From: Arenicola marina
Taxonomy: Eukaryota > Annelida > Polychaeta > Arenicolidae
Direction of reading: 5' to 3'
DNA: 64,000 bases
Assembly: GCA_964019135.1 (NCBI GenBank)
Contig: OZ025265.1
Coordinates: forward strand, 3,100,496-3,164,495
A program made the position numbers and the translations under genes. How positions within the stretch are numbered: position 1 is the stretch's first letter; each line of letters starts with the position of its first letter. Below are positions 33,314 to 64,000 of the stretch, piece after piece. A model generated the notes under the pieces. The model had not been told where the DNA came from and searched no databases. It saw only the letters and a list, made by a program, of their open reading frames with translations.

Positions 33314-33534
33314 CATTGTATGTTGTTCGAATGGGAATCTCGCACACGAACTTCCGGTCCGAGTCACAGTCTCGCTGTTGTAGGTTTTTGCCGTCATAAG
33401 CGGCGCACTGACTGTTGTAAATGACCGGGATTGTTCCCCAGGGGGCGACACCGCTCGGTTTAACCTCCAAGTACCCCAGCCAAGTCCAGAGATCACTCGT
33501 CGCCGCTCTGGTGTAGTCAACCCACAGCGGCCGG
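33314..33534 (-). CDS. C-type lectin domain 2, second half
   Basis: A 221-bp exon, phase 2 entry and phase 1 end, acceptor CACTGCACGCAG and donor CAATG|GTAACT. It codes for R-P-L-W-V-D-Y-T-R, L-W-T-W-L-G-Y-L-E-V, P-W-G-T-I-P-V, S-Q-C-A-A-Y-D, R-D-C-D-S-D-R-K-F-V-C-E-I-P. The W-x-G-L-like core and the last two cysteines of a C-type lectin fold are present. The E-P-N/Q-P-D and W-N-D calcium motifs are not, so calcium-dependent sugar binding is doubtful. Confidence 0.83.
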
Positions 33535-33907
33535 CTGCGTGCAGTGGGAACAATACTCTCATAGACAATGGCGAGCACGGCAAATACACCGTGAGTAATT
33601 TTACATTTACGGAAAAAGCATGATGTGAAATGTGTAGATACGAGTTGTAATGTCTGTATTTCACTATGAAAATGTGCATGATGGTCATTGGCGTTAATAA
33701 GGACATCAGGGCCTAATATGCATGTCTGATGAACCCCGATATAACAAGTTGACAAGTATTGAGTACATGTATATCAGAGATTGACACTTGTGTGGTGACC
33801 TCGTCAGACTCATTCTACTCCTGTTCGTACTGTTGGATTAGTCCATCAATTATATCAGTTGATTACATATCAATACCATTACAGATAGGAATGGCTGAGT
33901 AACTCAC

Positions 33908-34094
33908 CCCGACGAGTACATGGCAATGAGTTGATGGAAGTCGTCATAATGCTGAAGTCTCACGAGATGTGAGCCCACGACTTTCTCGCACAACTTCTTG
34001 GCGCTAGCGTAGTCGTAATGCAGGGCCGTGACGTGATAGCAGTAAGCCGGGTTGAGGCTGCCTACATCCCAGGAGACCGGGCATTGGCCTGTAT
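33908..34094 (-). CDS. C-type lectin domain 2, first half
   Basis: A 187-bp exon, phase 1 start and phase 2 end, acceptor CATTGTTCCAG and donor GTCGGG|GTGAGT. It encodes G-Q-C-P-V-S-W-D-V, P-A-Y-C-Y-H-V-T, A-S-A-K-K-L-C-E-K-V-V-G-S-H-L-V-R-L-Q, and F-H-Q-L-I-A-M-Y. The C-P-x-x-W / C-Y start and the A-x-x-x-C helix are the usual N-terminal half of a long-form C-type lectin. The phase-2 break before W-x-G-L matches that of lectin 1. Confidence 0.84.
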
Positions 34095-34317
34095 CTGGAA
34101 CAATGGAAACGAATTGGTTTTTCAGGCCACAGGGGCTAAGCTGGGTCATCCAGGGAACCTGCCCGGGACCATGAAGCATCGGTGCCTGACACCGAATGGC
34201 CCTTATTAGGTGTCAGGGTTTAGTTCATTAATGATGATTGGAATTGTCTGGTGCTTCACCGGATTTGGTTTATTCCGCTAAATGGCTATATAAGTTAACA
34301 GTTAACATAAGCCATTT

Positions 34318-36125: not shown

Positions 36126-36177
36126 GCACTAGTCTTAGCTATAGCCGGGGACCATAGATACAGAGACGATTACTCAC

Positions 36178-36395
36178 TGGGCGCCTGACACACCGCCGCC
36201 ATTGCACTTGCGCAGTCGATGTCCTCGATCACGTGATTGCCGTTGGCTGTGGCATTGATCCCGACACAGTCGTTCAGCGGTCGATTCGGAGCGGTCTCCG
36301 CCCAGAGGTCCTCCAGCATGAACGGCTGACCAGAGCTGTCGAAGAACTCCGGACGGTGGAGTCCGACCCAGAGCTCGTCTAACATCAGGTAGTCA
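36178..36395 (-). CDS. C-type lectin domain 1, second half
   Basis: A 218-bp exon with phase-2 entry and phase-1 end, acceptor GTCTCTCCCAG and donor GCCCA|GTGAGT. It codes for D-Y-L-M-L-D-E-L-W-V-G-L-H-R-P-E, A-E-T-A-P-N-R-P-L-N-D-C-V-G-I-N, and E-D-I-D-C-A-S-A-M-A-A-V-C-Q-A-P. This is the W-x-G-L to last-cysteine half of a C-type lectin, with A-P-N where mannose binders have E-P-N. The first-half exon must lie beyond the 74-bp array and outside the window. The first 30-odd bases of this exon and its acceptor are what the array repeats. Confidence 0.83.
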
Positions 36396-39300
36396 CTGGG
36401 AGAGACATCAATATGGTATAAGGTCATAGTTTAGGGTCGATCCAGAGGTCGTCTAACATCAGGTAGTCACTGGGAGAGACACCAATATGGTATAAGGTCA
36501 GAGTTTAGAGTCGATCCAGAGGTCGTCTAACATCAGGTAGTCACTGGGAGAGACATCAATATGGTATAAGGTCAGAGTTTAAGGTCGATCCAGAGGTCGT
36601 CTAACATCAGGTAGTCACTGGGAGAGACACCAATATGATATACGGTCATAGTTTAGGGTCGATCCAGAGGTCGTCTAACATCAGGTAGTCACTGGGAGAG
36701 ACATCAATATGGTATAAGGTCATAGTTTAGGGTCGATCCAGAGGTCGTCTAACATCAGGTAGTCACTGGGAGAGACATCAATATGGCATAAGGTCAGAGT
36801 TTAGGGTCGATCCAGAGGTCGTCTAACATCAAGTAGTCCCTGGGAGAGGCACCAATATGGTATAAGGTCAGAGTTTAGGGTCGATCCAGAGGTCGTCTAA
36901 CATCAGGTAGTCGCTGGGAGAGACACCAATATGGTATAAGGTCAGAGTTTAGGGTCGATCCAGAGGTCGTCTAACATCAGGTAGTCACTGGGAGCGACAT
37001 CAATATGATATAAGGTCAGAGTTTAGGGTCGATCCAGAGGTCGTCTAACATCAGGTAGTCACTGGGAGAGACATCAATATGGTATAAGGTCATAGTTTAG
37101 GGTCGATCCAGAGGTCGTCTAACATCAGGTAGTCACTGGGAGAGACATCAATATGGTATAAGGTCAGAGTTTAGGGTCGATCAAGAGGTCGTCTAACATC
37201 AGGTAGTCACTGGGAGAGACATCAACATGGTATAAGGTCATAGTTTAGGGTCGATCCAGAGGTCGTCTAACATCAGGTAGTCACTGGGAGAGACATCAAT
37301 ATGGTATAAGGTCAGAGTTTAGGGTCGATCCAGAGGTCGTCTAACATCAGGTAGTCACTGGGAGAGACACCAATATGGTAAAAGGTCATAGTTTAGGGTC
37401 GATCCAGAGGTCGTCTAACATCAGGTAGTCACTGGGAGAGACATCAATATGGTATAAGGTCAGAGTTTAGGGTCGATCCAGAGGTCGTCTAACATCAGGT
37501 AGTCACTGGGAGAGACATCAATATGGTATAAGGTCAGAGTTTAGGGTCGATCCAGAGGTCGTCTAACACCAGGTAGTCACTGGGAGAGACATCAATATGG
37601 TATAAGGTCATAGTTTAGGGTCGATCCAGAGGTCGTCTAACATCAGGTAGTCACTGGGAGAGACATCAATATGGTATAAGGTCATAGTTTAGGGTCCATC
37701 CAGAGGTCGTCTAACATCAGGTAGTCTTTGGGAGAGACATCAATATGGTATAAGGTCAGAGTTTAGGGTCGATCCAGAGGTCGTCTAACATCAGGTAGTC
37801 ACTGGGAGAGACATTAATATGGTATAAGGTCATAGTTTAGGGTCGATCCAGAGGTCGTCTAACATCAGGTAGTCACTGGGAGAGACATCAATATGATATA
37901 AGGTCAGAGTTTAAGGTCGATCCAGAGGTCGTCTAACATCAGGTAGTGACTGGGAGAGACACCAATATGGTATAAGGTCAGAGTTTAGGGTCGATCCAGA
38001 GGTCGTCTAACCTCAGGTAGTCACTGGGAGAGACATCAATATGATATACGGTCATAGTTTAGGGTCGATCCAGAGGTCGTCTAACATCAGGTAGTCACTG
38101 GGAGAGACATCAATATGGTATAAGGTCAGAGTGTAGAGTCGATCCAGAGGTCGTCTAACATCAGGTAGTGACTGGGAGAGACACCAATATGGTATAAGGT
38201 CAGAGTTTAGGGTCGATCCAGAGGTCGTCTAACATCAGGTAGTCACTGGGAGAGACATCAATATGATATACGGTCATAGTTTAGGGTCGATCCAGAGGTC
38301 GTCTAACATCAGGTAGTCACTGGGAGAGACATCAATATGGTATAAGGTCAGAGTGTAGAGTCGATCCAGAGGTCGTCTAACATCAGGTAGTGACTGGGAG
38401 AGACACCAATATGGTATAAGGTCAGAGTTTAGGGTCGATCCAGAGGTCGTCTAACATCAGGTAGTCACTGGGAGAGACATCAATATGGTATAAGGTCAGA
38501 GTTTAAGGTCGATCCAGAGCTCGTCTAACATCAGGTAGTCGCTGAAAGAGACATCAATATGGTATAAGGTCAGAGTTTAGGGTCGATCCAGAGGTCGTCT
38601 AACATCAGGTAGTCACTGGGAGAGACATCAATATGGTATAAGGTCATAGTTTAGGGTCCATCCAGAGGTCGTCTAACATCAGGTAGTCATTGGGAGAGAC
38701 ATCAATATGGTATAAGGTCAGAGTTTAGGGTCGATCCAGAGGTCGTCTAACATCAGGTAGTCACTGGGAGAGACATCAATATGGTATAAGGTCAGAGTTT
38801 AGGGTCGATCCAGAGGTCGTCTAACATCAGGTAGTCACTGGGAGAGACATCAATATGATATAAGGTCAGAGTTTAAGGTCGATCCAGAGGTCGTCTAACA
38901 TCAGGTAGTGACTGGGAGAGACACCAATATGGTATAAGGTCAGAGTTTAGGGTCGATCCAGAGGTCGTCTAACATCAGGTAGTCACTGGGAGAGACATCA
39001 ATATGATATACGGTCATAGTTTAGGGTCGATCCAGAGGTCGTCTAACATCAGGTAGTCACTGGGAGAGACATCAATATGGTATAAGGTCAGAGTGTAGAG
39101 TCGATCCAGAGGTCGTCTAACATCAGGTAGTGACTGGGAGAGACACCAATATGGTATAAGGTCAGAGTTTAGGGTCGATCCAGAGGTCGTCTAACATCAG
39201 GTAGTCACTGGGAGAGACATCAATATGGTATAAGGTCAGAGGTTAAGGTCGATCCAGAGCTCGTCTAACATCAGGTAGTCACTGGGAGAGACATCAATAT

Positions 39301-42300
39301 GGTATAAGGTCAGAGTTTAGGGTCGATCCAGAGGTCGTCTAACATCAGACAGTCACTGGGAGAGACATCAATATGGTATAAGGTCAGAGTTTAGGGTCGA
39401 TCCAGAGGTCGTCTAACATCAGGTAGTCACTGGGACAGACACCAATATGGTATAAGGTCAGAGTTTAGGGTCGATCCAGAGCTCGTCTAACATCAGGTAG
39501 TCACTGGGAGAGACATCAATATGGTATAAGGTCAGAGTTTAGGGTCGATCCAGAGGTCGTCTAACATCAGGTAGTCACTGGGAGAGACACCAATATGGTA
39601 TAAGGTCATAGTTTAGGGTCGATCCAGAGGTCGTCTAACATCAGGTAGTCGCTGAGAGAGACACCAATATGGTATAAGGTCAGAGTTTAGGGTCGATCCA
39701 GAGGTCGTCTAACATCAGGTAGTCGCTGGGAGAGCATCAATATGGTATAAGTTCAGAGTTTAAGGTCGATCCAGAGGTCGTCTAACATCAGGTATTCGCT
39801 GGGAGAGACATCAATATGGTATAAGTTCATAGTTTAGGGTCGACCCAGAGGTCGTCTAACATCAGGTAGTAACTGGAAGAGACATCAATATGATATACGG
39901 TCAGAGTTTAGGGTCGATTCAGAGGTCGTCCAACATCAGATAGTCACTGGGAGAGACATCAATATGGTATAAGGTCAGAGTTTAGAGTCGATCCAAAGGT
40001 CGTCTAACATCAGGTAGTCACTGGGAGAGACATCAATATGGTATAAGGTCAGAGTTTAGGGTCGATCCAGAGGTCGTCTAACATCAGGTAGTCACTGGGA
40101 GAGACATCAATATGGTATAAGGTCAGAGTTTAGGGTCGATCCAGAGGTCGTCTAACATCAGGTAGTCACTGGGAGAAACATCAATATGGTATAAGGTCAG
40201 AGTTTAAGGTCGATCCAGCGCTCGTCTAACATCAGGTAGTCACTGGGAGAGACATCAATATGGTATAAGGTCAGAGTTTAGGGTCGATCCAGAGGTCGTC
40301 TAACATCAGGTAGTGACTGGGAGAGACACCAATATGGTATAAGGTCAGAGTTTAGGGTCGATCCAGAGGTCGTCTAACATCAGGTAGTCACTGGGAGCGA
40401 CATCAATATGGTATAAGGTCAGAGTTTAGGGTCGATCCAGAGGTCGTCTAACATCAGGTAGTCACTGGGAGAGACATCAATATGATATACGGTCAGAGGT
40501 TAGGGTCGATCCAGAGGTCGTCTAACATCAGGTAGTCACTGGGAGAGACACCAATATGGTATAAGGTCAGAGTTTAGGGTCGATCCAGAGGTCGTCTAAC
40601 ATCAGGTAGTCACTGGGAGCGACATCAATATGATATACGGTCAGAGGTTAGGGTCGATCCAGAGGTCGTCTAACATCAGGTAGTCACTGGGAGAGACACC
40701 AATATGGTATAAGGTCAGAGTTTAGGGTCGATCCAGAGGTCGTTTAACATCAGGTAGTCGCTGGGAGAGACATCAATATGGTATAAGGTCAGAGTTTAGG
40801 GTCGATCCAGAGGTCGTCTAACATCAGGTAGTCACTGGGAGAGACATCAATATGGTATAAGGTCAGAGTTTAGGGTCGATCCAGAGGTCGTTTAACATCA
40901 GGTAGTCACTGGGAGAGACATCAATATGGTATAAGGTCAGAGTTTAGGGTCGATCCAGAGGTCGTCTAATATCAGGTAGTCGCTGGGAGAGACACCAATA
41001 TGGTATAAGGTCAGAGGTTAGGGTCGATCCAGAGGTCGTCTAACATCAGGTAGTCACTGGGAGAGACACCAATATGGTATAAGGTCAGAGTTTAGGGTCG
41101 ATCCAGAGGTCGTCTAACATCAGGTAGTCACTGGGAGCGACATCAATATGATATACGGTCAGAGGTTAGGGTCGATCCACAGCTCGTCTAACATCAAGTA
41201 GTCACTGGGAGAGACATCAATATGGTATAAGGTCAGAGTTTAGGGTCGATCCAGAGGTCGTCTAACATCAGGTAGTCACTGGGAGAGACATCAATATGGT
41301 ATAAGGTCATAGTTTAGGGTCGATCCAGAGGTCGTCTAACATCAGGTAGTCACTGGGAGAGACACCAATATGGTATAAGGTCAGAGTTTAGGGTCGATCC
41401 AGAGCTCGTCTAACATCAGGTAGTCACTGGGAGAGACATCAATATGGTATAAGGTCAGAGTTTAGGGTCGATCCAGAGGTCGTCTAACATCAGATAGTCA
41501 CTGGGTGAGACACCAATATGGTATAAGGTCAGAGTTTAGGGTCGATCCAGAGCTCGTCTAACATCAGGTAGTCACTGGGAGAGACATCAATATGGTATAA
41601 GGTCAGAGTTTAGGGTCGATCCAGAGGTCGTCTGACATCAGGTAGTCACTGGGAGAGACATCAATATGGTATAAGGTCAGAGTTTAGGGTCGATCCAGAG
41701 GTAGTCTAACATCAGGTAGTCACTGGGAGAGACACCAATATGGTATAAGGTCAGAGTTTAGGGTCGATCCAGAGGTCGTCTAACATCAGGTAGTCAATGG
41801 GAGAAACATCAATATGGTATAAGGTCAGAGTTTAAGGTCGATCCAGCGCTCGTCTAACATCAGGTAGTCACTGGGAGAGACATCAATATGATATACGGTC
41901 AGACGTTAGGGTCGATCCAGAGGTCGTCTAACATCAGGTAGTCACTGGGAGAGACACCAATATGGTATAAGGTCAGAGTTTAGGGTCGATCCAGAGGTCG
42001 TCTAACATCAGGTAGTCACTGGGAGAGACATCAATATGGTATAAGGTCAGAGTTTAGAGTCGATCCAGAGGTCGTCTAACATCAGGTAGGGACTGGGAGA
42101 GACACCAATATGGTATAAGGTCAGAGTTTAGGGTCGATCCACAGCTCGTCTAACATCAGGTAGTCACTGGAAGAGACATCAATATGGTATAAGGTCAGAG
42201 TTTAGGGTCGATCCAGAGGTCGTCTAACATCAGGTAGTCACTGGGAGAGACATCAATATGGTATAAGGTCAGAGTTTAGGGTCGATCCAGAGGTCGTCTA

Positions 42301-45300
42301 ACATCAGGTAGTCACTGGGAGAGACATCAATATGGTATAAGGTCAGAGTTTAGGGTCGATCCAGAGGTCGTCTAACATCAGGTAGTCACTGGGAGAACCA
42401 TCAATATGGTATAAGGTCAGAGTTTAGAGTCGATCCAGAGGTCGTCTAACATCAGGTAGTCACTGGAAGAGACACCAATATGGTATAAGGTCAGAGTTTA
42501 GGGTCGATCCAGAGGTCGTCTAACATCAGGTAGTCACTGGGAGAGACACCAATATGGTATAAGGTCAGAGTTTAGGGTCGATCCAGAGGTCGTCTAACAT
42601 CAGGTAGTCACTGGGAGAGACATCAATATGGTATAAGGTCAGAGTTTAGGGTCGATCCAGAGGTCGTCTAACATCAGGTATTCGCTGGGAGAGACATCAA
42701 TATGGTATAAGTTCATAGTTTAGGGTCGATCCAGAGCTCGTCTAACATCAGGTAGTCACTGGGAGAGACATCAATATGATATACGGTCAGAGTTTAGGGT
42801 CGATCCAGAGGTCGTCTAACATCAGATAGTCACTGGGAGAGACACCAATATGGTATAAGGTCAGAGTTTAGGGTCGATCCAGAGGTCGTCTAACATCAGG
42901 TAGTCACTGGGAGAGACATCAATATGGTATAAGGTCAGAGTTTAGGGTCGATCCAGAGGTCGTCTAACATCAGGTAGTCACTGGGAGAGACACCAATATG
43001 GTATAAGGTCAGAGTTTAGGGTCGATCCAGAGCTCGTCTAACATCAGGTAGTCACTGGGAGAGACATCAATATGGTATAAGGTCATAGTTTAGGGTCGAT
43101 CCAGAGGTCGTCTAACATCAGGTAGTCACTGGGAGAGACATCAATATGGTATAAGGTCAGAGTTTAGGGTCGATCCAGAGGTCGTCTAACATCAGGTAGT
43201 CACTGGGAGAGACATCAATATGGTATAAGGTCAGAGTTTAGGGTCGATCCAGAGGTCGTCTAACATCAGATAGTCACTGGGAGAGACACCATTATGGTAT
43301 AAGGTCAGAGTTTAGGGTCGATCCAGAGCTCGTCTAACATCAGGTAGTCACTGGGAGAGACACCAATATGGTATAAGGTCATAGTTTAGGGTCGATCCAG
43401 AGGTCGTCTAACATCAGGTAGTCGCTGGGAGAGACACCAATATGGTATAAGGTCAGAGTTTAGGGTCGATCCAGAGGTCGTCTAACATCAGGTAGTCGCT
43501 GGGAGAGACATCAATATGGTATAAGTTCAGAGTTTAGGGTCGATCCAGAGGTCGTCTAACATCAGGTATTCGCTGGGAGAGACATCAATATGGTATAAGT
43601 TCATAGTTTAGGGTCGACCCAGAGGTCGTCTAACATCAGGTAGTAACTGGGGGAGACATCAATATGATATACGGTCATAGTTTAGAGTCGATCCAGAGGT
43701 CGTCTAACATCAGGTAGTCACTGGGCGAGACATAAATATGGTATAAGGTCAGAGTTTAGGGTCGATCCAGAGGTCGTCTAACATCAGATAGTCACTGGGA
43801 GAGACATCAATATGGTATAAGGTCAGAGTTTAGAGTCGATCCAGAGGTCGTCTAACATCAGGTAGTCACTGGGAGAGACATCAATATGGTATAAGGTCAG
43901 AGTTTAAGGTCGATCCAGCGCTCGTCTAACATCAGGTAGTCACTGGGAGAGACATCAATATGGTATAAGGTCAGAGTTTAGGGTCGATCCAGAGGTCGTC
44001 GAACATCAGGTAGTCACTGGGAGAGACATCAATATGATATACGGTCAGAGGTTAGGGTCGATCCAGAGGTCGTCTAACATCAGGTAGTCACTGGGAGAGA
44101 CACCAATATGGTATAAGGTCAGAGTTTAGGGTCGATCCAGAGGTCGTCTAACATCAGGTAGTCACTGGGAGCGATATCAATATGATATACGGTCAGAGGT
44201 TAGGGTCGATCCAGAGGTCGTCTAACATCAGGTAGTCACTGGGAGAGACACCAATATGGTATAAGGTCAGAGTTTAGGGTCGATCCAGAGGTCGTCTAAC
44301 ATCAGGTAGTCGCTGGGAGAGACATCAATATGATATAAGGTCAGAGTTTAGGGTCGATCCAGAGGTCGTCTAACATCAGGTAGTCACTGGGAGCGATATC
44401 AATATGATATACGGTCAGAGGTTAGGGTCGATCCAGAGGTCGTCTAACATCAGGTAGTCACTGGGAGAGACACCAATATGGTATAAGGTCAGAGTTTAGG
44501 GTCGATCCAGAGGTCGTCTAACATCAGGTAGTCACTGGGAGAGACATCAATATGGTATAAAGTCATAGTTTAGGGTCGATCCAGAGGTCGTCTAACATCA
44601 GGTAGTCACTGGGAGAGACATCAATATGGTATAAGGTCAGAGTTTAGGGTTGATCCAGAGGTCGTCTAACATCAGGTAGTCACTGGGAGAGACACCAATA
44701 TGGTATAAGGTCAGAGTTTAGGGTCGATCCAGAGCTCGTCTAACATCAGGTAGTCACTGGGAGAGACATCAATATGGTATAAGGTCAGAGTTTAGGGTCG
44801 ATCCAGAGGTCGTCTAACATCAGGTAGTCACTGGGAGAGACACCAATATGGTATAAGGTCAGAGTTTAGGGTCGATCTAGAGCTCGTCTAACATCAGGTA
44901 GTCACTGGGAGAGATATCAATATGGTATAAGGTCAGAGTTTAGGGTCGATCCAGAGGTCGTCTAACATCAGGTAGTCACTGGGAGAGACATCAATATGGT
45001 ATAAGGTCAGAGTTTAGAGTCGATCCAGAGGTCGTCTAACATCAGGTAGGGACTGGGAGAGACACCAATATGGTATAAGGTCAGAGTTTAGGGTCGATCC
45101 ACAGCTCGTCTAACATGAGGTAGTCACTGGGAGAGACATCAATATGGTATAAGGTCAGAGTTTAGGGTCGATCCAGAGGTCGTCTAACATCAGGTAGTCA
45201 CTGGGAGAGACATCAATATGGTATAAGGTCAGAGTTTAGGGTCGATCCAGAGGTCGTCTAACATCAGGTAGTCACTGGGAGAGACATCAATATGGTATAA

Positions 45301-48300
45301 GGTCAGAGTTTAGAGTCGATCCAGAGGTCGTCTAACATCAGGTAGTCACTGGAAGAGACACCAATATGGTATAAGGTCAGAGTTTAGGGTCGATCCAGAG
45401 GTCGTCTAACATCAGGTAGTCACGGGGAGAGACATCAATATGGTATAAGGTCAGAGTTTAGGGTCGATCCAGAGGTCGTCTAACATCAGGTAGTCACTGG
45501 GAGAGACATCAATATGGTATAAGGTCAGAGTTTAGGGTCGATCCAGAGGTCGTCTAACATCAGGTAGTCACTGGGAGAGACACCAATATGGTATAAGGTC
45601 AGAGTTTAGGGTCGATCCAGAGCTCGTCTAACATCAGGTAGTCACTGGGAGAGACATCAATATGGTATAAGGTCAGAGTTTAGGGTCGATCCAGAGGTCG
45701 TCTAACATCAGATAGTCACTGGGAGAGACAACAATATGGTATAAGTTCAGAGTTTAGGGTCGATCCAGAGGTCGTCTAACATCAGGTAGTCACTGGGAGA
45801 GACATCAATATGGTATAAGGTCAGAGTTTAGGGTCGATCCAGAGGTCGTCTAACATCAGGTAGTCACTGGGAGAGACACCAATATGGTATAAGGTCAGAG
45901 TTTAGGGTCGATCCAGAGCTCGTCTAACATCAGGTAGTCACTGGGAGAGACATCAATATGGTATAAGGTCAGAGTTTAGGGTCGATCCAGAGGTCGTCTA
46001 ACATCAGGTAGTCGCTGGGAGAGACATCAATATGGTATAAGGTCAGAGTTCAGGGTCGATCCAGAGGTCGTCTAACATCAGGTAGTCACTGGGAGAGACA
46101 CCAATATGGTATAAGGTCAGAGTTTAGGGTCGATCCAGAGGTCGTCTAACATCAGGTAGTCACTGGGAGAGACATCAATATGGTATAAGGTCAGAGTTTA
46201 GGGTCGATCCAGAGGTCGTCTAACATCAGGTAGTCACTGGGAGAGACATCAATATGGTATAAGGTCAGAGTTTAGGGTCGATCCAGAGGTCGTCTAACAT
46301 CAGGTAGTCACTGGGAGAGACATCAATATGGTATAAGGTCAGAGTTTAGGGTCGATCCAGAGGTCGTCTAACATCAGGTAGTCACTGGGAGAGACACCAA
46401 TATGGTATAAGGTCAGAGTTTAGGGTCGATCTAGAGGTCGTCTAACATCAGGTAGTCACTGGGAGAGACATCAATATGGTATAAGGTCATAGTTTAGGGT
46501 CGATCCAGAGGTCGTCTAACATCAGGTAGTCACTGGGAGAGACATCAATATGGTATAAGGTCAGAGTTTAGGGTCGATCCAGAGCTCGTCTAACATCAGG
46601 TAGTCACTGGGAGAGACACCAATATGGTATAAGGTCATAGTTTAGGGTCGATCCAGAGGTCGTCTAACATCAGGTAGTCGCTGGGAGAGACACCAATATG
46701 GTATAAGGTCAGAGTTTAGGGTCGATCCAGAGGTCGTCTAACATCAGGTAGTCGCTGGGAGAGACATCAATATGGTATAAGTTCAGAGTTTAGGGTCGAT
46801 CCAGAGGTCGTCTAACATCAGGTATTCGCTGGGAGAGACATCAATGTGGTATAAGTTCATAGTTTAGGGTCGACCCAGAGGTCGTCTAACATCAGGTAGT
46901 AACTGGGAGAGACATCAATATGATATACGGTCATAGTTTAGAGTCGATCCAGAGGTCGTCTAACATCAGGTAGTCACTGGGCGAGACATAAATATGGTAT
47001 AAGGTCAGAGTTTAGGGTCGATCCAGAGGTCGTCTAACATCAGATAGTCACTGGGAGAGACATCAATATGGTATAAGGTCAGAGTTTAGAGTCGATCCAG
47101 AGGTCGTCTAACATCAGGTAGTCACTGGGAGAAACATCAATATGGTATAAGGTCAGAGTTTAAGGTCGATCCAGAGCTCGTCTAACATCAGGTAGTCACT
47201 GGGAGAGACATCAATATGGTATAAGGTCAGAGTTTAGGGTCGATCCAGAGGTCGTCTAACATCAGGTAGTCACTGGGAGAGACATCAATATGATATACGG
47301 TCAGAGGTTAGGGTCGATCCAGAGGTCGTCTAACATCAGGTTGTCACTGGGAGAGACACCAATATGGTATAAGGTCAGAGTTTAGGGTCGATCCAGAGGT
47401 CGTCTAACATCAGGTAGTCACTGGGAGCGATATCAATATGATATACGGTCAGAGGTTAGGGTCGATCCAGAGGTCGTCTAACATCAGGTAGTCACTGGGA
47501 GAGACACCAATATGGTATAAGGTCAGAGTTTAGGGTCGATCCAGAGGTCGTCTAACATCAGGTAGTCGCTGGGAGAGACACCAATATGGTATAAGGTCAG
47601 AGTTTAGGGTCGATCCAGAGCTCGTCTAACATCAGGTAGTCACTGGGAGAGACATCAATATGGTATAAGGTCAGAGTTTAGGGTCGATCCAGAGGTCGTC
47701 TAACATCAGGTAGTCACTGGGAGAGACACCAATATGGTATAAGGTCAGAGTTTAGCGTCGATCCAGAGGTCGTCTAACATCAGGTAGTCACTGGGAGAGA
47801 CACCAATATGGTATAAGGTCAGAGTTTAGGGTCGATCCAGAGGTCGTCTAACATCAGGTAGTCACTGGGAGAGACATCAATATGGTATAAGGTCAGAGTT
47901 TAGGGTCGATTCAGAGGTCGTCTAACATCAGGTAGTCACTGGGAGCGACATCAATATGATATACGGTCAGACGTTAGGGTCGATCCAGAGGTCGTCTAAC
48001 ATCAGGTAGTCACTGGGAGAGACACCAATATGGTATAAGGTCAGAGTTTAGGGTCGATCCAGAGGTCGTCTAACATCAGGTAGTCGCTGGGAGAGACATC
48101 AATATGGTATAAGGTCAGAGTTTAGGGTCGATCCAGAGGTCGTCTAACATCAGGTAGTCACTGGGAGAGACACCAATATGGTATAAGGTCAGAGTTTAGG
48201 GTCGATCCAGAGGTCGTCTAACATCAGGTAGTCACTGGGAAAGACATCAATATGGTATAAGGTCAGAGTTTAGGGTCGATCCAGAGCTCGTCTAACATCA

Positions 48301-51300: not shown

Positions 51301-54300
51301 AGTTTAGGGTCGATCCAGAGGTCGTCTAACATCAGGTAGTCACTGGGAGAGACATCAATATGGTATAAGGTCAGAGTTTAGGGTCGATCCAGAGGTCGTC
51401 TAACATCAGGTAGTCACTGGGAGAGACATCAATATGGTATAAGGTCAGAGTTTAGGGTCGATCCAGAGGTCGTCTAACATCAGGTAGTCACTGGGAGAGA
51501 CATCAATATGGTATAAGGTCAGAGTTTAGGGTTGATCCAGAGGTCGTCTAACATCAGGTAGTCGCTGGGAGAGACACCAATATGGTATAAGGTCAGAGTT
51601 TAGGGTCGATCCAGAGGTCGTCTAACATCAGGTAGTCGCTGGGAGAGACATCAATATGGTATAAGGTCAGAGTTTACGGTCGATCCAGAGGTCGTCTAAC
51701 ATCAGGTAGTCACTGGGAGAGACATCAATATGGTATAAGGTCATAGTTTAGGGTCGATCATGAGCTCGTCTAACATCAGGTAGTCACTGGGAGAGACACC
51801 AATATGGTATAAGGTCATAGTTTAGGGTCGATCCAGAGGTCGTCTAACATCAGGTAGTCGCTGGGAGAGACACCAATATGGTATAAGATCAGAGTTTAGG
51901 GTCGATCCAGAGGTCGTCTAACATCAGGTAGTCGCTGGGAGAGACATCAATATGGTATAAGTTCAGAGTTTAGGGTCGATCCAGAGGTCGTCTAACATCA
52001 GGTATTCGCTGGGAGAGACATCAATATGGTATAAGTTCATAGTTTAGGGTCGACCCAGAGGTCGTCTAACATCAGGTAGTAACTGGGGGAGACATCAATA
52101 TGATATACGGTCATAGTTTAGGGTCGATCCAGAGGTCGTCTAACATCAGGTAGTCACTGGGCGAGACAAAAATATGGTATAAGGTCAGAGTTTAGGGTCG
52201 ATCCAGAGGTCGTCTAACATCAGATAGTCACTGGGAGAGACATCAATATGGTATAAGGTCAGAGTTTAGAGTCGATCCAGAGGTCGTCTAACATCAGGTA
52301 GTCACTGGGAGAGACATCAATATGGTATAAGGTCAGAGCTTAAGGTCGATCCAGCGCTCGTCTAACATCAGGTAGTCACTGGGAGAGACATCAATATGGT
52401 ATAAGGTCAGAGTTTAGGGTCGATCCAGAGGTCGTCTAACATCAGGTAGTCACTGGGAGCGATATCAATATGATATACGGTCAGAGGTTAGGGTCGATCC
52501 AGAGGTCGTCTAACATCAGGTAGTCACTGGGAGAGACACCAATATGGTATAAGGTCAGAGTTTAGGGTCGATCCAGAGGTCGTCTAACATCAGGTAGTCG
52601 CTGGGAGAGACATCAATATGATATAAGGTCAGAGTTTAGGGTCGATCCAGAGGTCGTCTAACATCAGGTAGTCACTGGGAGAGACATCAATATGGTATAA
52701 GGTCAGAGTTTAGGGTCGATCCAGAGGTCGTCTAACATCAGGTAGTCACTGGGAGAGACATCAATATGGTATAAGGTCAGAGTTTAGGGTCGATCCAGAG
52801 GTCGTCTAACATCAGGTAGTCACTGGGAGAGACATCAATATGGTATAAGTTCATAGTTTAGGGTCGATCCAGAGGTCGTCTAACATCAGGTAGTCACTGG
52901 GAGAGACACCAATATGGTATAAGGTCAGAGTTTAGGGTCGATCCAGAGGTCGTCTAACATCAGGTAGTCACTGGGAGAGACATCAATATGGTATAAGGTC
53001 AGAGTTTAGGGTCGATCCAGAGGTCGTCTAACATCAGGTAGTCACTGGGAGAGACATCAATATGGTATAAGGTCATAGTTTAGGGTCGATCCAGAGGTCG
53101 TCTAACATCAGGTAGTCGCTGGGAGAGACATCAATATGGTATATGGTCAGAGTTTAGGGTCGATCCAGAGGTCGTCTAACATCAGGTAGTCACTGGGAGA
53201 GACATCAATATGGTATAAGGTCATAGTTTAGGGTCGATCCAGAGGTCGTCTAACATCAGGTAGTCACTGGGAGAGACATCAATATGGTATAAGGTCAGAG
53301 TTTAGGGTTGATCCAGAGGTCGTCTAACATCAGGTAGTCACTGGGAGAGACACCAATATGGTATAAGGTCATAGTTTAGGGTCGATCCAGAGGTCGTCTA
53401 ACATCAGGTAGTCACTGGGAGAGACATCAATATGGTATAAGGTCAGAGTTTAGGGTCGATCCAGAGGTCGTCTAACATCAGGTAGTCACTGGGAGAGACA
53501 CCAATATGGTATAAGGTCAGAGTTTAGGGTCGATCTAGAGCTCGTCTAACATCAGGTAGTCACTGGGAGAGACACCAATATGGTATAAGGTCATAGTTTA
53601 GGGTCGATTCAGAGGTCGTCTAACATCAGGTAGTCACTGGGAAAGACATCAATATGGTATAAGGTCAGAGTTTAGGGTCGATCCAGAGGTCGTCTAACAT
53701 CAGGTAGTCGCTGGGAGAGACACCAATATGGTATAAGGTCAGAGTTTAGGGTCGATCCAGAGGTCGTCTAACATCAGGTAGTCACTGGGAGAGACATCAA
53801 TATGGTATAAGGTCAGAGTTTAGAGTCGATCCAGAGGTCGTCTAACATCAGGTAGGGACTGGGAGAGACACCAATATGGTATAAGGTCAGAGTTTAGGGT
53901 CGATCCACAGCTCGTCTAACATCAGGTAGTCACTGGGAGAGACATCAATATGGTATAAGGTCAGAGTTTAGGGTCGATCCAGAGGTCGTCTAACATCAGG
54001 TAGTCACTGGGAGAGACATCAATATGGTATAAGGTCAGAGTTTAGGGTCGATCCAGAGGTCGTCTAACATCAGGTAGTCACTGGGAGAGACACCAATATG
54101 GTATAAGGTCAGAGTTTAGGGTCGATCCAGAGCTCGTCTAACATCAGGTAGTCACTGGGAGAGACATCAATATGGTATAAGGTCAGAGTTTAGGGTCGAT
54201 CCAGAGGTCGTCTAACATCATGTAGTCACTGGGAGAGACACCAATATGGTATAAGGTCAGAGTTTAGGGTCGATCCAGAGCTCGTCTAACATCAGGTAGT

Positions 54301-57300
54301 CACTGGGAGAGACATCAATATGGTATAAGGTCAGAGTTTAGGGTCGATCCAGAGGTCGTCTAACATCAGGTAGTCGCTGGGAGAGACATCAATATGGTAT
54401 AAGGTCAGAGTTTAGGGTCGATCCAGAGCTCGTCTAACATCAGGTAGTCACTGGGAGAGACATCAATATGGTATAAGGTCAGAGTTTAGGGTCGATCCAG
54501 AGGTCGTCTAACATCAGGTAGTCACTGGGAGAGACATCAATATGGTATAAGGTCATAGTTTAGGGTCGATCCAGAGGTCGTCTAACATCAGGTAGTCACT
54601 GGGAGAGACATCAATATGGTATAAGGTCAGAGTTTAGGGTCGATCCAGAGGTCGTCTAACATCAGGTAGTCACTGGGAGAGACATCAATATGGTATAAGG
54701 TCAGAGTTTAGGGTCGATCCAGAGGTCGTCTAACATCAGGTAGTCACTGGGAGAGACATCAATATGGTATAAGGTCAGAGTTTAGGGTCGATCCAGAGGT
54801 CGTCTAACATCAGGTAGTCACTGGGAGAGACATCAATATGGTATAAGGTCAGAGTTTAGGGTCGATCCAGAGGTCGTCTAACATCAGGTAGTCACTGGGA
54901 GAGACACCAATATGGTATAAGGTCAGAGTTTAGGGTCGATCTAGAGCTCGTCTAACATCAGGTAGTCACTGGGAGAGACACCAATATGGTATAGGATCAT
55001 AGTTTAGGGTCGATCCAGAGGTCGTCTAACATCAGGTAGTCACTGGGAGAGACATCAATATGGTATAAGGTCAGAGTTTAGGGTCGATCCAGAGGTCGTC
55101 TAACATCAGGTAGTCACTGGGAGAGACACCAATATGGTATAAGGTCAGAGTTTAGGGTCGATCTAGAGCTCGTCTAACATCAGGTAGTCACTGGGAGAGA
55201 CACCAATATGGTATAAGGTCAGAGTTTAGGGTCGATCCAGAGGTCGTCTAACATCAGGTAGTCACTGGGAGAGACACCAATATGGTATAAGGTCATAGTT
55301 TAGGGTCGATCCACAGCTCGTCTAACATCAAGTAGTCACTGGGAGAGACATCAATATGGTATAAGGTCAGAGTTTAGGGTCGATCCAGAGGTCGTCTAAC
55401 ATCAGGTAGTCACTGGGAGAGACATCAATATGATATAAGGTCAGAGTTTAGGGTCGATCCAGAGGTCGTCTAACATCAGGTAGTCACTGGGAGAGACATC
55501 AATATGGTATAAGGTCAGAGTTTAGGGTCGATCCAGAGGTCGTCTAACATCAGATAGTCACTGGGAGAGACACCAATATGGTATAAGGTCAGAGTTTAGG
55601 GTCGATCCAGAGCTCGTCTAACATCAGGTAGTCACTGGGAGAGACATCAATATGGTATAAGGTCAGAGTTTAGGGTCGATCCAGAGGTCGTCTAACATCA
55701 GATAGTCACTGGGAGAGACACCAATATGGTATAAGGTCAGAGTTTAGGGTCGATCCAGAGCTCGTCTAACATCAGGTAGTCACTGGGAGAGACACCAATA
55801 TGGTATAAGGTCATAGTTTAGGGTCGATCCAGAGGTCGTCTAACATCAGGTAGTCGCTGGGAGAGACACCAATATGGTATAAGGTCAGAGTTTAGGGTCG
55901 ATCCAGAGGTCGTCTAACATCAGGTAGTCGCTGGGAGAGACATCAATATGGTATAAGTTCAGAGTTTAGGGTCGATCCAGAGGTCGTCTAACATCAGGTA
56001 TTCGCTGGGAGAGACATCAATATGGTATAAGTTCATAGTTTAGGGTCGACCGAGAGGTCGTCTAACATCAGGTAGTCCCTGGGAGAGACATCAATATGAT
56101 ATACGGTCATAGTTTAGAGTCGATCCAGAGGTCGTCTAACATCAGGTAGTCACTGGGCGAGACATAAATATGGTATAAGGTCAGAGTTTAGAGTCGATCC
56201 AGAGGTCGTCTAACATCAGATAGTCACTGGGAGAGACATCAATATGGTATAAGGTCAGAGTTTAGAGTCGATCCAGAGGTCGTCTAACATCAGGTAGTCA
56301 CTGGGAGAGACATCAATATGGTATAAGGTCAGAGTTTAGGGTCGATCCAGAGGTCGTCTAACATCAGGTAGTCACTGGGAGAGACATCAATATGGTATAA
56401 GGTCAGAGTTTAGGGTCGATCCAGAGGTCGTCTAACATCAGGTAGTCACTGGGAGAAACATCAATATGGTATAAGGTCAGAGTTTAAGGTCGATCCAGCG
56501 CTCGTCTAACATCAGGTAGTCACTGGGAGAGACATCAATATGGTATAAGGTCAGAGTTTAGGGTCGATCCAGAGGTCGTCTAACATCAGGTAGTCACTGG
56601 GAGAGACATCAATATGATATACGGTCAGAGGTTAGGGTCGATCCAGAGCTCGTCTAACATCAGGTAGTCACTGGGAGAGACACCAATATGGTATAAGGTC
56701 AGAGTTTAGGGTCGATCCAGAGGTCGTCTAACATCAGGTAGTCACTGGGAGCGATATCAATATGATATACGGTCAGAGGTTAGGGTCGATCCAGAGGTCG
56801 TCTAACATCAGGCAGTCACTGGGAGAGACACCAATATGGTATAAGGTCAGAGTTTAGGGTCGATCCAGAGGTCGTCTAACATCAGGTAGTCGCTGGGAGA
56901 GACATCAATATGATATAAGGTCAGAGTTTAGGGTCGATCCAGAGGTCGTCTAACATCAGGTAGTCACTGGGAGAGACATCAATATGGTATAAGGTCAGAG
57001 TTTAGGGTCGATCCAGAGCTCGTCTAACATCAGGTAGTCACTGGGAGAGACATCAATATGGTATAAGGTCAGAGTTTAGGGTCGATCCAGAGGTCGTCTA
57101 ACATCAGGTAGTCACTGGGAGAGACACCAATATGGTATAAGGTCAGAGTTTAGGGTCGATCTAGAGGTCGTCTAACATCAGGTAGTCACTGGGAGAGACA
57201 CCAATATGGTATAAGGTCATAGTTTAGGGTCGATCCAGATGTCGTCTAACATCAGGTAGTCACTGGGAGAAACATCAATATGGTATAAGGTCAGAGTTTA

Positions 57301-60300
57301 GGGTCGATCCAGAGCTCGTCTAACTTCAGGTAGTCACTGGGAGAGACATCAATATGGTATACGGTCAGAGTTTAGGGTCGATCCAGAGGTCGTCTAACAT
57401 CAGGTAGTCACTGGGAGAGACACCAATATGGTATAAGGTCAGAGTTTAGGGTCGATCCAGAGCTCGTCTAACATCAGGTAGTCACTGGGAGAGACATCAA
57501 TATGGTATAAGTTCATAGTTTAGGGTCGACCCAGAGGTCGTCTAACATCAGGTATTCGCTGGGAGAGACATCAATATGGTATAAGTTCATAGTTTAGGGT
57601 CGACCCAGAGGTCGTCTAACATCAGGTAGTAACTGGGAGAGACATCAATATGATATACGGTCATAGTTTAGAGTCGATCCAGAGGTCGTCTAACATCAGG
57701 TAGTCACTGGGCGAGACATAAATATGGTATAAGGTCAGAGTTTAGGGTCGATCCAGAGGTCGTCTAACATCAGATAGTCACTGGGAGAGACATCAATATG
57801 GTATAAGGTCAGAGTTTAGAGTCGATCCAGAGGTCGTCTAACATCAGGTAGTCACTGGGAGAGACATCAATATGGTATAAAGTCAGAGTTTAGGGTCGAT
57901 CCAGAGGTCGTCTAACATCAGGTAGTCACTGGGAGAGACATCAATATGGTAAAGGGCAGAGTTTAGGGTCGATCCAGAGGTCGTCTAACATCAGGTAGTC
58001 ACTGGGAGAAACGCCAATATGGTATAAGGTCAGAGTTTAAGGTCGATCCAGCGCTCGTCTAACATCAGGTAGTCACTGGGAGAGACATCAATATGGTATA
58101 AGGTCAGAGTTTAGGGTCGATCCAGAGGTCGTCTAACATCAGGTAGTCACTGGGAGAGACATCAATATGATATACGGTCAGAGGTTAGGGTCGATCCAGA
58201 GGTCGTCTAACATCAGGTAGTCACTGGGAGAGACACCAATATGGTATAAGGTCAGAGTTTAGGGTCGATCCAGAGGTCGTCTAACATCAGGTAGTCACTG
58301 GGAGCGATATCAATATGATATACGGTCAGAGGTTAGGGTCGATCCAGAGGTCGTCTAACATCAGGTAGTCACTGGGAGAGACACCAATATGGTATAAGGT
58401 CAGAGTTTAGGGTCGATCCAGAGGTCGTCTAACATCAGGTAGTCGCTGGGAGAGACATCAATATGATATAAGGTCAGAGTTTAGGGTCGATCCAGAGGTC
58501 GTCTAACATCAGGTAGTCACTGGGAGAGACATCAATATGGTATAAGGTCAGAGTTTAGGATCGATCCAGAGGTCGTCTAACATCAGGTAGTCGCTGGGAG
58601 AGACACCAATATGGTATAAGGTCAGAGTTTAGGGTCGATCCAGAGCTCGTCTAACATCAGGTAGTCACTGGGAGAGACACCAATATGGTATAAGGTCAGA
58701 GTTTAGCGTCGATCCAGAGGTCGTCTAACATCAGGTAGTCACTGGGAGAGACACCAATATGGTATAAGGTCAGAGTTTAGGGTCGATCCAGAGGTCGTCT
58801 AACATCAGGTAGTCACTGGGAGAGACATCAATATGGTATAAGGTCAGAGTTTAGGGTCGATCCAGAGGTCGTCTAACATCAGGTAGTCACTGGGAGCGAC
58901 ATCAATATGATATACGGTCAGACGTTAGGGTCGATCCAGAGGTCGTCTAACATCAGGTAGTCACTGGGAGAGACACCAATATGGTATAAGGTCAGAGTTT
59001 AGGGTCGATCCAGAGGTCGTCTAACATCAGGTAGTCGCTGGGAGAGACATCAATATGGTATAAGGTCAGAGTTTAGGGTCGATCCAGAGGTCGTCTAACA
59101 TGAGGTAGTCACTGGGAGAGACACCAATATGGTATAAGGTCAGAGTTGAGGGTCGATCCAGAGGTCGTCTAACATCAGGTAGTCACTGGGAGAGACATCA
59201 ATATGGTATAAGGTCAGAGTTTAGGGTCGATCCAGAGCTCGTCTAACATCAGGTAGTCACTGGGAGAGACATCAATATGGTATAAGGTCAGAGTTTAGGG
59301 TCGATCCAGAGGTCGTCTAACATCAGGTAGTCACTGGGAGAGACACCAATATGGTATAAGGTCAGAGTTTAGGGTCGATCTAGAGCTCGTCTAACATCAG
59401 GTAGTCACGGGGAGAGACACCAATATGGTATAAGATCAGAGTTTAGGGTCGATCCAGAGGTCGTCTAACATCAGGTAGTCACTGGGAGAAACATCAATAT
59501 GGTATAAGGTCAGAGTTTAGGGTCGATCCAGAGCTCGTCTAACATCAGGTAGTCACTGGGAGAGACATCAATATGGTATACGGTCAGAGTTTAGGGTCGA
59601 TCCAGAGGTCGTCTAACATCAGGTAGTCACTGGGAGAGACACCAATATGGTATAAGGTCAGAGTTTAGGGTCGATCCAGAGCTCGTCTAACATCAGGTAG
59701 TCACTGGGAGAGACATCAATATGGTATAAGGTCAGAGTTTAGGGTCGATCCAGAGGTCGTCTAACATCAGGTAGTCGCTGGGAGAGACACCAATATGGTA
59801 TAAGGTCAGAGTTTAGGGTCGATCCAGAGGCCGTCTAACATCAGGTAGTCACTGTGAGAGACATCAATATGGTATAAGGTCAGAGTTTAGGGTCGATCCA
59901 GAGCTCGTCTAACATCAGGTAGTCATTGGGAGAGACATCAATATGGTATAAGGTCAGAGTTTAGGGTCGATCCAGAGGCCGTCTAACATCAGGTAGTCAC
60001 TGTGAGAGACATCAATATGGTATAAGGTCAGAGTTTAGGGTCGATCCAGAGCTCGTCTAACATCAGGTAGTCACTGGGAGAGACATCAATATGGTATAAG
60101 GTCAGAGTTTAGGGTCGATCCAGAGGTCGTCTAACATCAGGTAGTCGCTGGGAGAGACACCAATATGGTATAAGGTCAGAGTTTAGGGTCGATCTAGAGC
60201 TCGTCTAACATCAGGTAGTCACTGGGAGAGACATCAATATGGTATAAGGTCAGAGTTTAGGGTCGATCCAGAGCTCGTCTAACATCAGGTAGTCACTGGG

Positions 60301-63300
60301 AGAGACACCAATATGGTATAAGGTCAGAGTTTAGGGTCGATCCAGAGGTCGTCTAACATCAGGTAGTCACTGGGAGAGACATCAATATGGTATAAGGTCA
60401 GAGTTTAGGGTCGATCCAGAGGTCGTCTAACATCAGGTAGTCACTGGGAGCGACATCAATATGATATACGGTCAGACGTTAGGGTCGATCCAGAGGTCGT
60501 CTAACATCAGGTAGTCACTGGGAGAGACACCAATATGGTATAAGGTCAGAGTTTAGGGTCGATCCAGAGGTCGTCTAACATCAGGTAGTCGCTGGGAGAG
60601 ACATCAATATGGTATAAGGTCAGAGTTTAGGGTCGATCCAGAGCTCGTCTAACATGAGGTAGTCACTGGGAGAGACACCAATATGGTATAAGGTCAGAGT
60701 TGAGGGTCGATCCAGAGGTCGTCTAACATCAGGTAGTCACTGGGAGAGACATCAATATGGTATAAGGTCAGAGTTTAGGGTCGATCCAGAGCTCGTCTAA
60801 CATCAGGTAGTCACTGGGAGAGACATCAATATGGTATAAGGTCAGAGTTTAGGGTCGATCCAGAGGTCGTCTAACATCAGGTAGTCACTGGGAGAGACAC
60901 CAATATGGTATAAGGTCAGAGTTTAGGGTCGATCTAGACCTCGTCTAACATCAGGTAGTCACGGGGAGAGACACCAATATGGTATAAGGTCAGAGTTTAG
61001 GGTCGATCCAGAGGTCGTCTAACATCAGGTAGTCACTGGGAGAAACATCAATATGGTATAAGGTCAGAGTTTAGGGTCGATCCAGAGCTCGTCTAACATC
61101 AGGTAGTCACTGGGAGAGACATCAATATGGTATACGGTCAGAGTTTAGGGTCGATCCAGAGGTCGTCTAACATCAGGTAGTCACTGGGAGAGACACCAAT
61201 ATGGTATACGGTCAGAGTTTAGGGTCGATCCAGAGCTCGTCTAACATCAGGTAGTCACTGGGAGAGACATCAATATGGTATAAGGTCAGAGTTTAGGGTC
61301 GATCCAGAGGTCGTCTAACATCAGGTAGTCGCTGGGAGAGACACCAATATGGTATAAGGTCAGAGTTTAGGGTCGATCCAGAGGCCGTCTAACATCAGGT
61401 AGTCACTGTGAGAGACATCAATATGGTATAAGGTCAGAGTTTAGGGTCGATCCAGAGCTCGTCTAACATCAGGTAGTCACTGGGAGAGACATCAATATGG
61501 TATAAGGTCAGAGTTTAGGGTCGATCCAGAGGCCGTCTAACATCAGGTAGTCACTGTGAGAGACATCAATATGGTATAAGGTCAGAGTTTAGGGTCGATC
61601 CAGAGCTCGTCTAACATCAGGTAGTCACTGGGAGAGACATCAATATGGTATAAGGTCAGAGTTTAGGGTCGATCCAGAGGTCGTCTAACATCAGGTAGTC
61701 GCTGGGAGAGACACCAATATGGTATAAGGTCAGAGTTTAGGGTCGATCTAGAGCTCGTCTAACATCAGGTAGTCACTGGGAGAGACATCAATATGGTATA
61801 AGGTCAGAGTTTAGGGTCGATCCAGAGCTCGTCTAACATCAGGTAGTCACTGGGAGAGACACCAATATGGTATAAGGTCAGAGTTTAGGGTCGATCCAGA
61901 GGTCGTCTAACATCAGGTAGTCACTGGGAGAGACACCAATATGGTATAAGGTCAGAGTTTAGGGTCGATCTAGAGCTCGTCTAACATCAGGTAGTCACTG
62001 GGAGAGACACCAATATGGTATAAGGTCATAGTTTAGGGTCGATCCAGAGGTCGTCTAACATCAGGTAGTCACTGGGAAAGACATCAATATGGTATAAGGT
62101 CAGAGTTTAGGGTCGATCCAGAGGTCGTCTAACATCAGGTAGTCACTGGGAGAAACATCAATATGGTATAAGGTCAGAGTTTAGGGTCGATCCAGAGGTC
62201 GTCTAACATCAGGTAGTCGCTGGGAGAGACATCAATATGGTATAAGGTCAGAGTTTAGGGTCGATCCAGGGGTCGTCTAACATCAGGTAGTCACTGGGAG
62301 AGACATCAATATGGTATACGGTCAGAGTTTAGGGTCGATCCAGAGGTCGTCTAACATCAAGTAGTCACTGGGAGAGACATCAATATGGTATAAGGTCAGA
62401 GTTTAGGGTCGATCCAGAGGTCGTCTAACATCAAGTAGTCACTGGGAGAGACATCAATATGGTATAAGGTCAGAGTTTAGGGTCGATCCAGAGGTCGTCT
62501 AACATCAGGTAGTGACTGGGAGAGACATCAATATGGTATAAGGTCAGAGTTTAGGGTCGATCCAGAGGTCGTCTAACATCAGGTAGTCACTGGGAGAGAC
62601 ATCAATATGGTATAAGGTCAGAGTTTAGGGTCGATCCAGAGGTCGTCTAACATCAGGTAGTCACTGGGAGAGACATCAATATGGTATAAGGTCATAGTTT
62701 AGGGTCGATCCAGAGGTCGTCTAACAGCAGGTAGTCACTGGGAGAGACATCAATATGGTATAAGGTCAGAGTTTATGGTCGATCCAGAGGTCGTCTAACA
62801 TCAGATAGTCACTGGGAGAAACATCAATATGGTATAAGGTCAGAGTTTAAGGTCGATCCAGAGCTCGTCTAACATCAGGTAGTCACTGGGAGAGACATCA
62901 ATATGGTATAAGGTCAGAGTTTAGGGTCGATCCAGAGGTCGTCTAACATCAGGTAGTCACTGGGAGAGACATCAATATGATATACGGTCAGAGGTTAGGG
63001 TCGATCCAGAGGTCGTCTAACATCAGGTAGTCACTGGGAGAGACACCAATATGGTATAAGGTCAGAGTTTAGGGTCGATCCAGAGGTCGTCTAACATCAG
63101 GTAGTCACTGGAAGAGACATCAATATGGTATAAGGTCAGAGTTTAGGGTCGATCCAGAGGTCGTCTAACATCAGGGAGTCACTGGGAGAGACATCAATAT
63201 GGTATAAGGTCCTAGTTTAGGGTCGATCCGGAGCTCGTCTAACATCAGGTAGTCACTGGGAGAGACATCAATATGGTATAAGGTCAGAGTTTCGGGTCGA

Positions 63301-64000
63301 TCCAGAGGTCGTCTAACATCAGGTAGTCACTGAGAGAGACATCAATATGGTATAAGGTCAGAGTTTAGGGTCGATCCAGAGGTCGTCTAACATCAGGTAG
63401 TGACTGGGAGAGACATCAATATGATATAAGGTCAGAGTTTAGGGTTGATCCAGAGGTCGTCTAACATCAGGTAGTCACTGGGAGAGACATCAATATGGTA
63501 TAAGGCCAGAGTTTAGGGTCGATCCAGAGGTCGTCTAACATCAGGTAGTCACTGGGAGAAACATCAATATGGTATAAGGTCATAGTTTAGGGTCGATCCA
63601 GAGGTCGTCTAACATCAGGTAGTCACTGGGAGAGACATCAATATGGTATAAGGTCAGAGTTTAGGGTCGATCCAGAGCTCGTCTAACATCAGGTAGTCAC
63701 TGGGAGAGACATCAATATGGTATACGGTCAGAGGTTAGGGTCGATCCAGAGCTCGTCTAACATCAGGTAATCACTGGGAGAGACATCAATATGGTATAAG
63801 GTCAGAGTTTAGGGTCGATCCAGAGGTCGTCTAACATCAGGTAGTCACTGGGAGAGACATCAATATGATATACGGTCAGAGGTTAGGGTCGATCCAGAGC
63901 TCGTCTAACATCAGGTAGTCACTGGGAGAGACACCAATATGGTATAAGGTCAGAGTTTAGGGTCTATCCAGAGGTCGTCTAACATCAGGTAGTCACTGGG
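36388..64000 (-). repeat. 74-bp minisatellite carrying a 3' splice site (about 373 copies, open at the window end)
   Basis: On the transcribed strand each unit contains GATGTCTCTCCCAG|TGACT, then ACCTGATGTTAGACGACCTC, TGG and a spacer. It thus repeats the acceptor of exon 36178-36395 plus the start of that exon. Landmarks fall in a strict 74-bp register: the rare mark GGTATTCGCTGGG is at 39791, 42677, 43565, 46821, 48819, 52001, 55997 and 57551, spacings of 39, 12, 44, 27, 43, 54 and 21 exact units. From 36388 to 63988 only two single-base deletions are needed (near 39735 and 57953). Units included in an exon would shift frame and stop. The array runs off the window. Confidence 0.97.

Follow-up and report, generated by a model that had tools for sequence, protein, structure and literature searches.

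A 74-bp minisatellite carrying a lectin exon's own splice acceptor fills a 47.9-kb intron in the annelid Arenicola marina

How is the correct splice acceptor found when the intron before it consists almost wholly of copies of that acceptor? A C-type-lectin-like gene on the minus strand of a 64,000-nucleotide stretch of the Arenicola marina genome raises this question. We refer to the whole stretch as the window; it corresponds to C20:3100496-3164495 in a genome of 867 Mb and 762 contigs. A first-pass annotation, made from the sequence alone, had described an intronic array built from the 3' splice site of a lectin exon, and had concluded that the gene must either force the use of the last acceptor or tolerate many dead transcripts. 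We examined the array, the gene around it, and similar arrays in the window and elsewhere in the genome.

TRF reports the 74-bp repeat in the window as a single array (36364-64000, period 74, 373.5 copies, 95% matches). With the next 40 kb added, the array overshoots the window end by 19 kb and reaches position 82904 of the prolonged window coordinates (C20:3183399), broken twice, each time by about 105 bp. Our own segmentation on the minus strand gave 624 units over 46,536 bp, 371 of them entirely inside the window. The count of about 373 acceptor copies given earlier is thus too low, the total being about 624 units. The array begins 32 bp within the exon at 36178..36395 (-), hereafter exon B, and by both TRF and unit segmentation it occupies 36396..64000 (-), upstream of exon B in the transcript, before continuing beyond the window. 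It makes up 46,536 of the 47,861 bp of the intron (97%).

The unit spans about -42 to +32 relative to the exon B acceptor. On the minus strand it reads TGATGTCTCTCCCAG followed by exon-like sequence, and the consensus matches exon B at 30 of its first 32 bases (36364..36395 (-)), in agreement with the earlier statement that the unit holds about 30 bases of the exon start. The remaining 42 bases come from the intron end and contain the branch-point-like CTCTGAC, a pyrimidine tract and CAG. Both the tract and the acceptor had been predicted for the unit; the acceptor is confirmed, and the tract is present but short (12 of 17 bases). The motif TCTCCCAG occurs 528 times in the intron versus once on the gene strand of window positions 1-36177.

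Exon B is 218 bp long, starts in phase 2, ends in phase 1 and codes for the second half of a C-type-lectin-like domain. Its score against Pfam Lectin_C is 15.9 bits, under the cut-off of 22.6. Its identity to two paralogous exons is 52% and 56%, with the same start, phase and donor; the donor, GTGAGT at 36172..36177 (-), stands at the same place in the paralogues. The first half of the domain is in exon A (C20:3184752-3184905), which lies past the far end of the array and ends ...AATGG|GTAAGT. The first base of exon B, T, completes the codon begun by exon A, so the junction is in phase 2. When the genome was searched with the joined exons A and B, the two paralogues were located at 14.18 and 32.28 Mb of this chromosome, and both exons are present in each. 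Their intron is at the same position and in the same phase and measures 707 and 181 bp, which makes the intron here 68 to 264 times as long. In the paralogue introns TRF found no array, apart from a short piece of about 35 bp, rich in A, in the 707-bp one. The A-B junction is thus supported by phase and paralogues at the level of genomic sequence, and with the upstream exon placed beyond the array we agree with the earlier reading that the array was built from the 3' splice site of the lectin exon and lies in the intron preceding it.

Exons A and B are open with intact splice sites, and comparison with the paralogues gave dN of 0.26-0.29 and dS of 0.98-1.03 (dN/dS about 0.27-0.28). The next lectin-like domain (33291..34212 (-)) also reads open; it consists of two exons separated by a phase-2 intron of ordinary size. 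Lectin_C scores 27.8 bits for 33291-33773, and no Pfam family was found for the other exon, 33907-34212. On the minus strand of the window, EGF, sushi and DUF7402 matches exceed their cut-offs, and together they may belong to one large gene for an extracellular mosaic protein. Upstream of exon A lie putative retrotransposon frames, named by reading the frame for their likeness to reverse transcriptase and endonuclease (94024-96721 in the prolonged coordinates, C20 about 3194519-3197216 (-)). A further frame at 98110-98367 (C20 about 3198605-3198862 (-)) presumably resembles the E1-like enzyme UBA5.

The acceptor copies are well preserved. Of the 624 units, 615 retain the acceptor AG, 612 the full CAG and 516 the branch-point-like CTGAC, a motif that the first-pass annotation had not mentioned. 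We looked for erosion of the decoy acceptors across the 624 units and found none. Changes hit the A and G of the acceptor 5 and 6 times, compared with 16.9 for the average position, so nothing suggests that the decoys are being disabled. The true acceptor (TGATGTCTCTCCCAG, 36396..36410 (-)) comes from the last unit of the array, which differs from the consensus by one base, within the CTGAC motif. As a result, its branch-point-like sequence is CTATGAC (36423..36429 (-)), where most other units have CTCTGAC; by the branch-point consensus CTATGAC is slightly worse than the motif of most decoys. Locally, the true acceptor is no better than the decoys, so its immediate surroundings do not set it apart.

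The use of an upstream acceptor would break the reading frame, as the first-pass annotation had proposed. The first four decoys upstream of the true acceptor give exons of 292 to 514 nt (292 and 366 nt for the first two), each with 14 added codons and then a stop; through the next acceptor upstream the stop reached is the in-frame TGA at 36424..36426 (-). Only these four products were used for stop positions, as for farther ones the count loses register wherever a 73-bp unit or an insert intervenes. The in-frame stop is present in 618 of 624 units.

The dilemma between a forced last acceptor and dead transcripts is unsupported. When introns are long, splicing prefers the sites that lie nearest to each other across an exon, according to the accessible text of one study (PMC9225289), and such exon definition predicts the last acceptor. 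Amphioxus has comparable but smaller arrays, called mirages, which are tandem repeats across an exon-intron boundary, and the available parts of the reports describe them as apparently not disturbing splicing (PMC3087553, PMC3902484). The array origin, its place and the frame break are thus supported, the dilemma is not. We consider it likely that the array is a mirage minisatellite and that correct mRNA is still made by exon definition, as judged from the sequence. If the gene is transcribed, the true acceptor would be paired first with the exon B donor, 218 nt away, since it alone lies directly before that donor, and the decoys would lack a similarly well-matching donor a short way downstream. 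The first decoys, with their extended exons of 292 and 366 nt, may fall within the reach of exon definition. A small leak to acceptors one or two units upstream would then be expected, with the products presumably removed by decay.

The supply of donors in the array bears directly on this reading. Scored by a simple count of matches to the nine-base consensus, the own donors of exons A and B reach 7/9. About 2,080 GT sites lie in the array, and only 6 of them reach 7/9, with none higher; 20 shuffled arrays gave 42 to 68 such sites (mean 53). All 6 lie upstream of exon B at distances above 31 kb; 3 are identical to the exon B donor. Sites at 6/9 are common (516 GT sites), and the unit consensus holds one at each acceptor, CCA|GTGACT, a single base from the CCA|GTGAGT of exon B. 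This makes weak pseudo-exons, roughly one unit in length, conceivable. We also considered the decoys as recursive splicing (ratchet) sites. Joining exon A to a decoy gives ATG|GTGACT with 7/9 matches, equal to the gene's own donors, so the rebuilt donor is not weak; we rejected recursive splicing because a step from it drops one exon base and loses the frame.

The same observations can be read as a leaky gene, in which a large share of transcripts uses decoys and is lost to nonsense-mediated decay, with the array length setting the output. The local equality of decoys and true site, the stop brought by decoy use and the frequent 6/9 sites would all suit such a leak. Timing would as well: RNA polymerase moves at 2-4 kb per minute, so the first decoy would be made many minutes before the true site. 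However, only 6 sites equal the gene's own donors, and they are far from exon B, and the closest decoy, about 1.4 kb from the exon A donor, is too far away for intron definition. The amphioxus mirages, reported without splicing disturbance in the accessible text (PMC3087553, PMC3902484), also argue against heavy decoy use. We regard a large leak as unlikely.

It is quite improbable that the locus is a dying gene copy, whose array was free to grow since splicing no longer mattered. Two paralogues exist, and a decoy-filled intron of 47.9 kb would be a plausible end for a gene. Against this, exons A and B have kept their frames and splice sites, their dN/dS is low, although a recent loss would still be compatible with these values, and the next lectin-like domain is open too. 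Least probable of all is an assembly artefact in the array or its length, which the exact recurrence of blocks longer than 1.2 kb might suggest, since the stretch contains no N, the 624 units comprise 217 distinct sequences, the unit contains the exon's own sequence and similar arrays occur at other junctions of the genome.

On our preferred reading, no function has to be assumed for the array. Tandem duplication of a stretch from about 42 bp in the intron to 32 bp in exon B, by slippage or unequal exchange, followed by block duplications, would have led to the 624 copies. The intron would thereby have been stretched from a few hundred bases, as in the paralogues, to 47.9 kb. Divided into twelve bins, the array shows 1.6 to 2.6 changes per unit relative to the consensus, nearly uniform along its length. 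Stretches of more than 1.2 kb recur exactly at shifts of 1,702 and 3,215 bp; at the 3,215-bp shift, a 107-bp insertion is present in a second copy as well. These block repeats suggest recent growth of the array. As the block duplications were seen within one haplotype, length instability between haplotypes is likely.

The array has the structural features of the mirage class, as far as genomic sequence can tell: the repeat lies across an exon-intron boundary, and its units carry the splice signal. The boundary may be that of a working exon, given the intact frame, the phase-2 match to exon A, the two paralogues and the dN/dS. According to the accessible text of the reports, amphioxus mirages occur in Adh, troponin C, the globins BflGb6 and BflGb9, and PGBD5 (PMC3087553, PMC3902484), and they were proposed as a route to new introns (PMC3087553). 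The array described here differs in phylum, in scale and in its many intact acceptors. The BflGb6 haplotypes are described with 6 and 3 units, in contrast to the 624 copies over 46.5 kb in this annelid, and four such arrays lie here in one 64-kb window. A human interferon-induced transcript reportedly contains a minisatellite of splice donors (Nucleic Acids Res 1995;23:1854, by its title as cited in PMC2572611); tandem splice-site copies within a gene are shared with the present case, with donors there and acceptors here. The giant introns of Drosophila kl-3 and kl-5 resemble this intron in being almost wholly tandem repeats that have to be transcribed through (PMC6508621, accessible text). 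They are described there as megabases of simple satellite, reportedly needing special RNA-binding proteins, whereas here a gene-derived unit with its own splice acceptor extends over 46.5 kb. At 97% tandem repeat the intron is similar to these satellite-filled introns in composition, and at 47.9 kb it is well below the megabase size of intron gigantism (PMC6508621). An annelid intron with large minisatellite arrays has been described, with mean monomers of 178 and 181 bp (PMC12783039). It is alike in having intronic arrays, and the accessible part of that report does not mention splice junctions in the unit. In the open-access literature, as covered by titles and the beginnings of abstracts, we found no such array described in an annelid.

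The mitochondrial contig agrees with the annelid assignment. Contig C762 (15,942 bp) carries cox1-cox2-cox3-nad6-cob-atp6-nad5-nad4-nad1-nad3-nad2 on one strand. The cox1 gene was found as a Pfam match and cox3 was named by reading its frame; the nine other mitochondrial genes were scanned with Pfam, with nad6 at 22.7 bits, below its cut-off of 33.2, and nad2 matching only a general antiporter family. The COX1 frame makes good sense with AGR as Ser, ATA as Met and AAA as Lys, judged by its conserved motifs. In annelids and their kin, nad6 and cob follow cox3, atp6 lies between cob and nad5, nad5 and nad4 are exchanged, and nad3 lies between nad1 and nad2, according to the accessible text of PMC2639372. 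The gene order of the contig points to the annelid one; together with the COX1 reading, this led us to reject amphioxus as the source. In the nuclear genome, dozens of kinase-domain frames of about 280-320 codons, perhaps intronless, were seen on C3, mostly at 45-57 Mb, among the 120 of 1191 candidates that were scored.

The array had been presented as a single oddity, which did not hold. TRF listed 24 rows in the window, several of them overlapping or simple, and we inspected the edges of 13 arrays. Four of the 13 span a presumed splice junction: the 74-bp array at an acceptor, and arrays of 21, 51 and about 77.5 bp at donors. The 21-bp array (1302..3923 (-), TRF, about 125 copies) covers the donor of a sushi exon (CAG|GTGAGG; sushi 36.7 bits), and at the same junction two paralogues also carry 21-bp arrays, of 32.9 and 67.9 copies, whose unit has diverged. 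The 51-bp array (11507..15998 (-), 88 copies) covers a presumed donor, CTGGAG|GTATGT, of an exon called from its open frame and AG/GT only. The array of about 77.5 bp (18294..19780 (-), TRF period 155) covers the presumed donor ATTGTGG|GTGAGT of an exon likewise called by open frame and AG/GT, for which Pfam gave no match. Rfam at gathering thresholds found nothing in the window or in the extracted loci L010, L011 and L012 (L009 was left out).

Two of the donor arrays contain long open frames. The 21-bp array (1302-4327 (-), with L025 and L026) is open together with the sushi exon over 575, 300 and 545 codons in the three paralogues, and the 51-bp array (11474-16188) has open frames of more than 1,500 codons on both strands. 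As the frame of the 21-bp array stays open, use of a downstream donor would add in-frame heptapeptides. A search for coding constraint in the 51-bp array by codon position gave 73, 64 and 66 changes, about even and without a sign of constraint, and none of the changes gives a stop in the frame of the exon. The 21-bp array shows 10 of its 17 possible synonymous changes, 16 of its 44 possible amino-acid changes and each of the two that would create a stop. A coding role of the two arrays is therefore unsupported.

Junction-spanning arrays are also found elsewhere in the genome. We took 58 exons (38 lectin and 20 sushi, 2-2.4 kb each) from the Pfam matches listed and 20 kinesin exons, a small and non-random sample. 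The 58 were picked to spread over clusters, and they are not independent because several are near copies from the same clusters. L025 and L026 were left out of the edge count, having been chosen for their long open frames. The edge zone, -45 to +15 bp of the domain end, was set post hoc, after an earlier look that had missed L040. Array edges fell in this zone at the donor end of 8 of the 58 exons (L032, L039, L040, L051, L063, L069, L074 and L080; random mean 2.95) and at the acceptor end of 2 (L051 and L052; random mean 2.47). Among 5,000 random placements, 31 reached or passed the observed number for donors, 3,624 for acceptors and 188 for both together, indicating enrichment on the donor side and none on the acceptor side alone. 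Sorted into 60-bp bins, the closest array edge on the donor side lies in the junction bin for 8 exons, and the other bins contain 0 to 7. In the ten edge cases, the presumed splice signal is either part of the array or its starting point.

L051 itself is a lectin-like exon flanked by a 51-bp junction array on the acceptor side and a 45-bp one on the donor side (1-903 and 1085-1234). In L059 (1027-2000) and L064 (1032-2000), a 99-bp lectin-motif repeat overlaps the domain match, with printed units that are open in L059 and contain stops in L064; these arrays reach into the lectin matches, lie outside the zone and were not counted. Among the 20 kinesin exons, no splice signal was contained in a multi-copy array. 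Two arrays come close to a kinesin junction and do not contain the signal, and the exon end and donor of L094 lie inside a 457-bp segment duplicated to about two copies. Sequence near the lectin and sushi exons consists of tandem arrays over 29,805 of 123,200 bp, versus 6,087 of 40,000 bp near the kinesin exons.

A wider interpretation may be offered as speculation, and we hold it to be doubtful: in this lineage, tandem duplication would be drawn to splice junctions through a mechanism coupled to transcription or splicing, exons would go on producing arrays from their own splice sites, and the arrays would lengthen introns almost freely, with decoys kept harmless by exon definition. Some of them, with units in multiples of three and open frames, would feed in-frame repeats into proteins. 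The locus sets up a natural contest between one true acceptor and about 620 near-identical decoys, where the main visible difference is the distance to the downstream donor. Junction counts in this intron would gauge the distance dependence of exon definition and any benefit of earlier transcription. The arrays indicate that junction-spanning minisatellites occur in a phylum distant from amphioxus, and that an intron can thereby reach 68 to 264 times its length in the paralogues.
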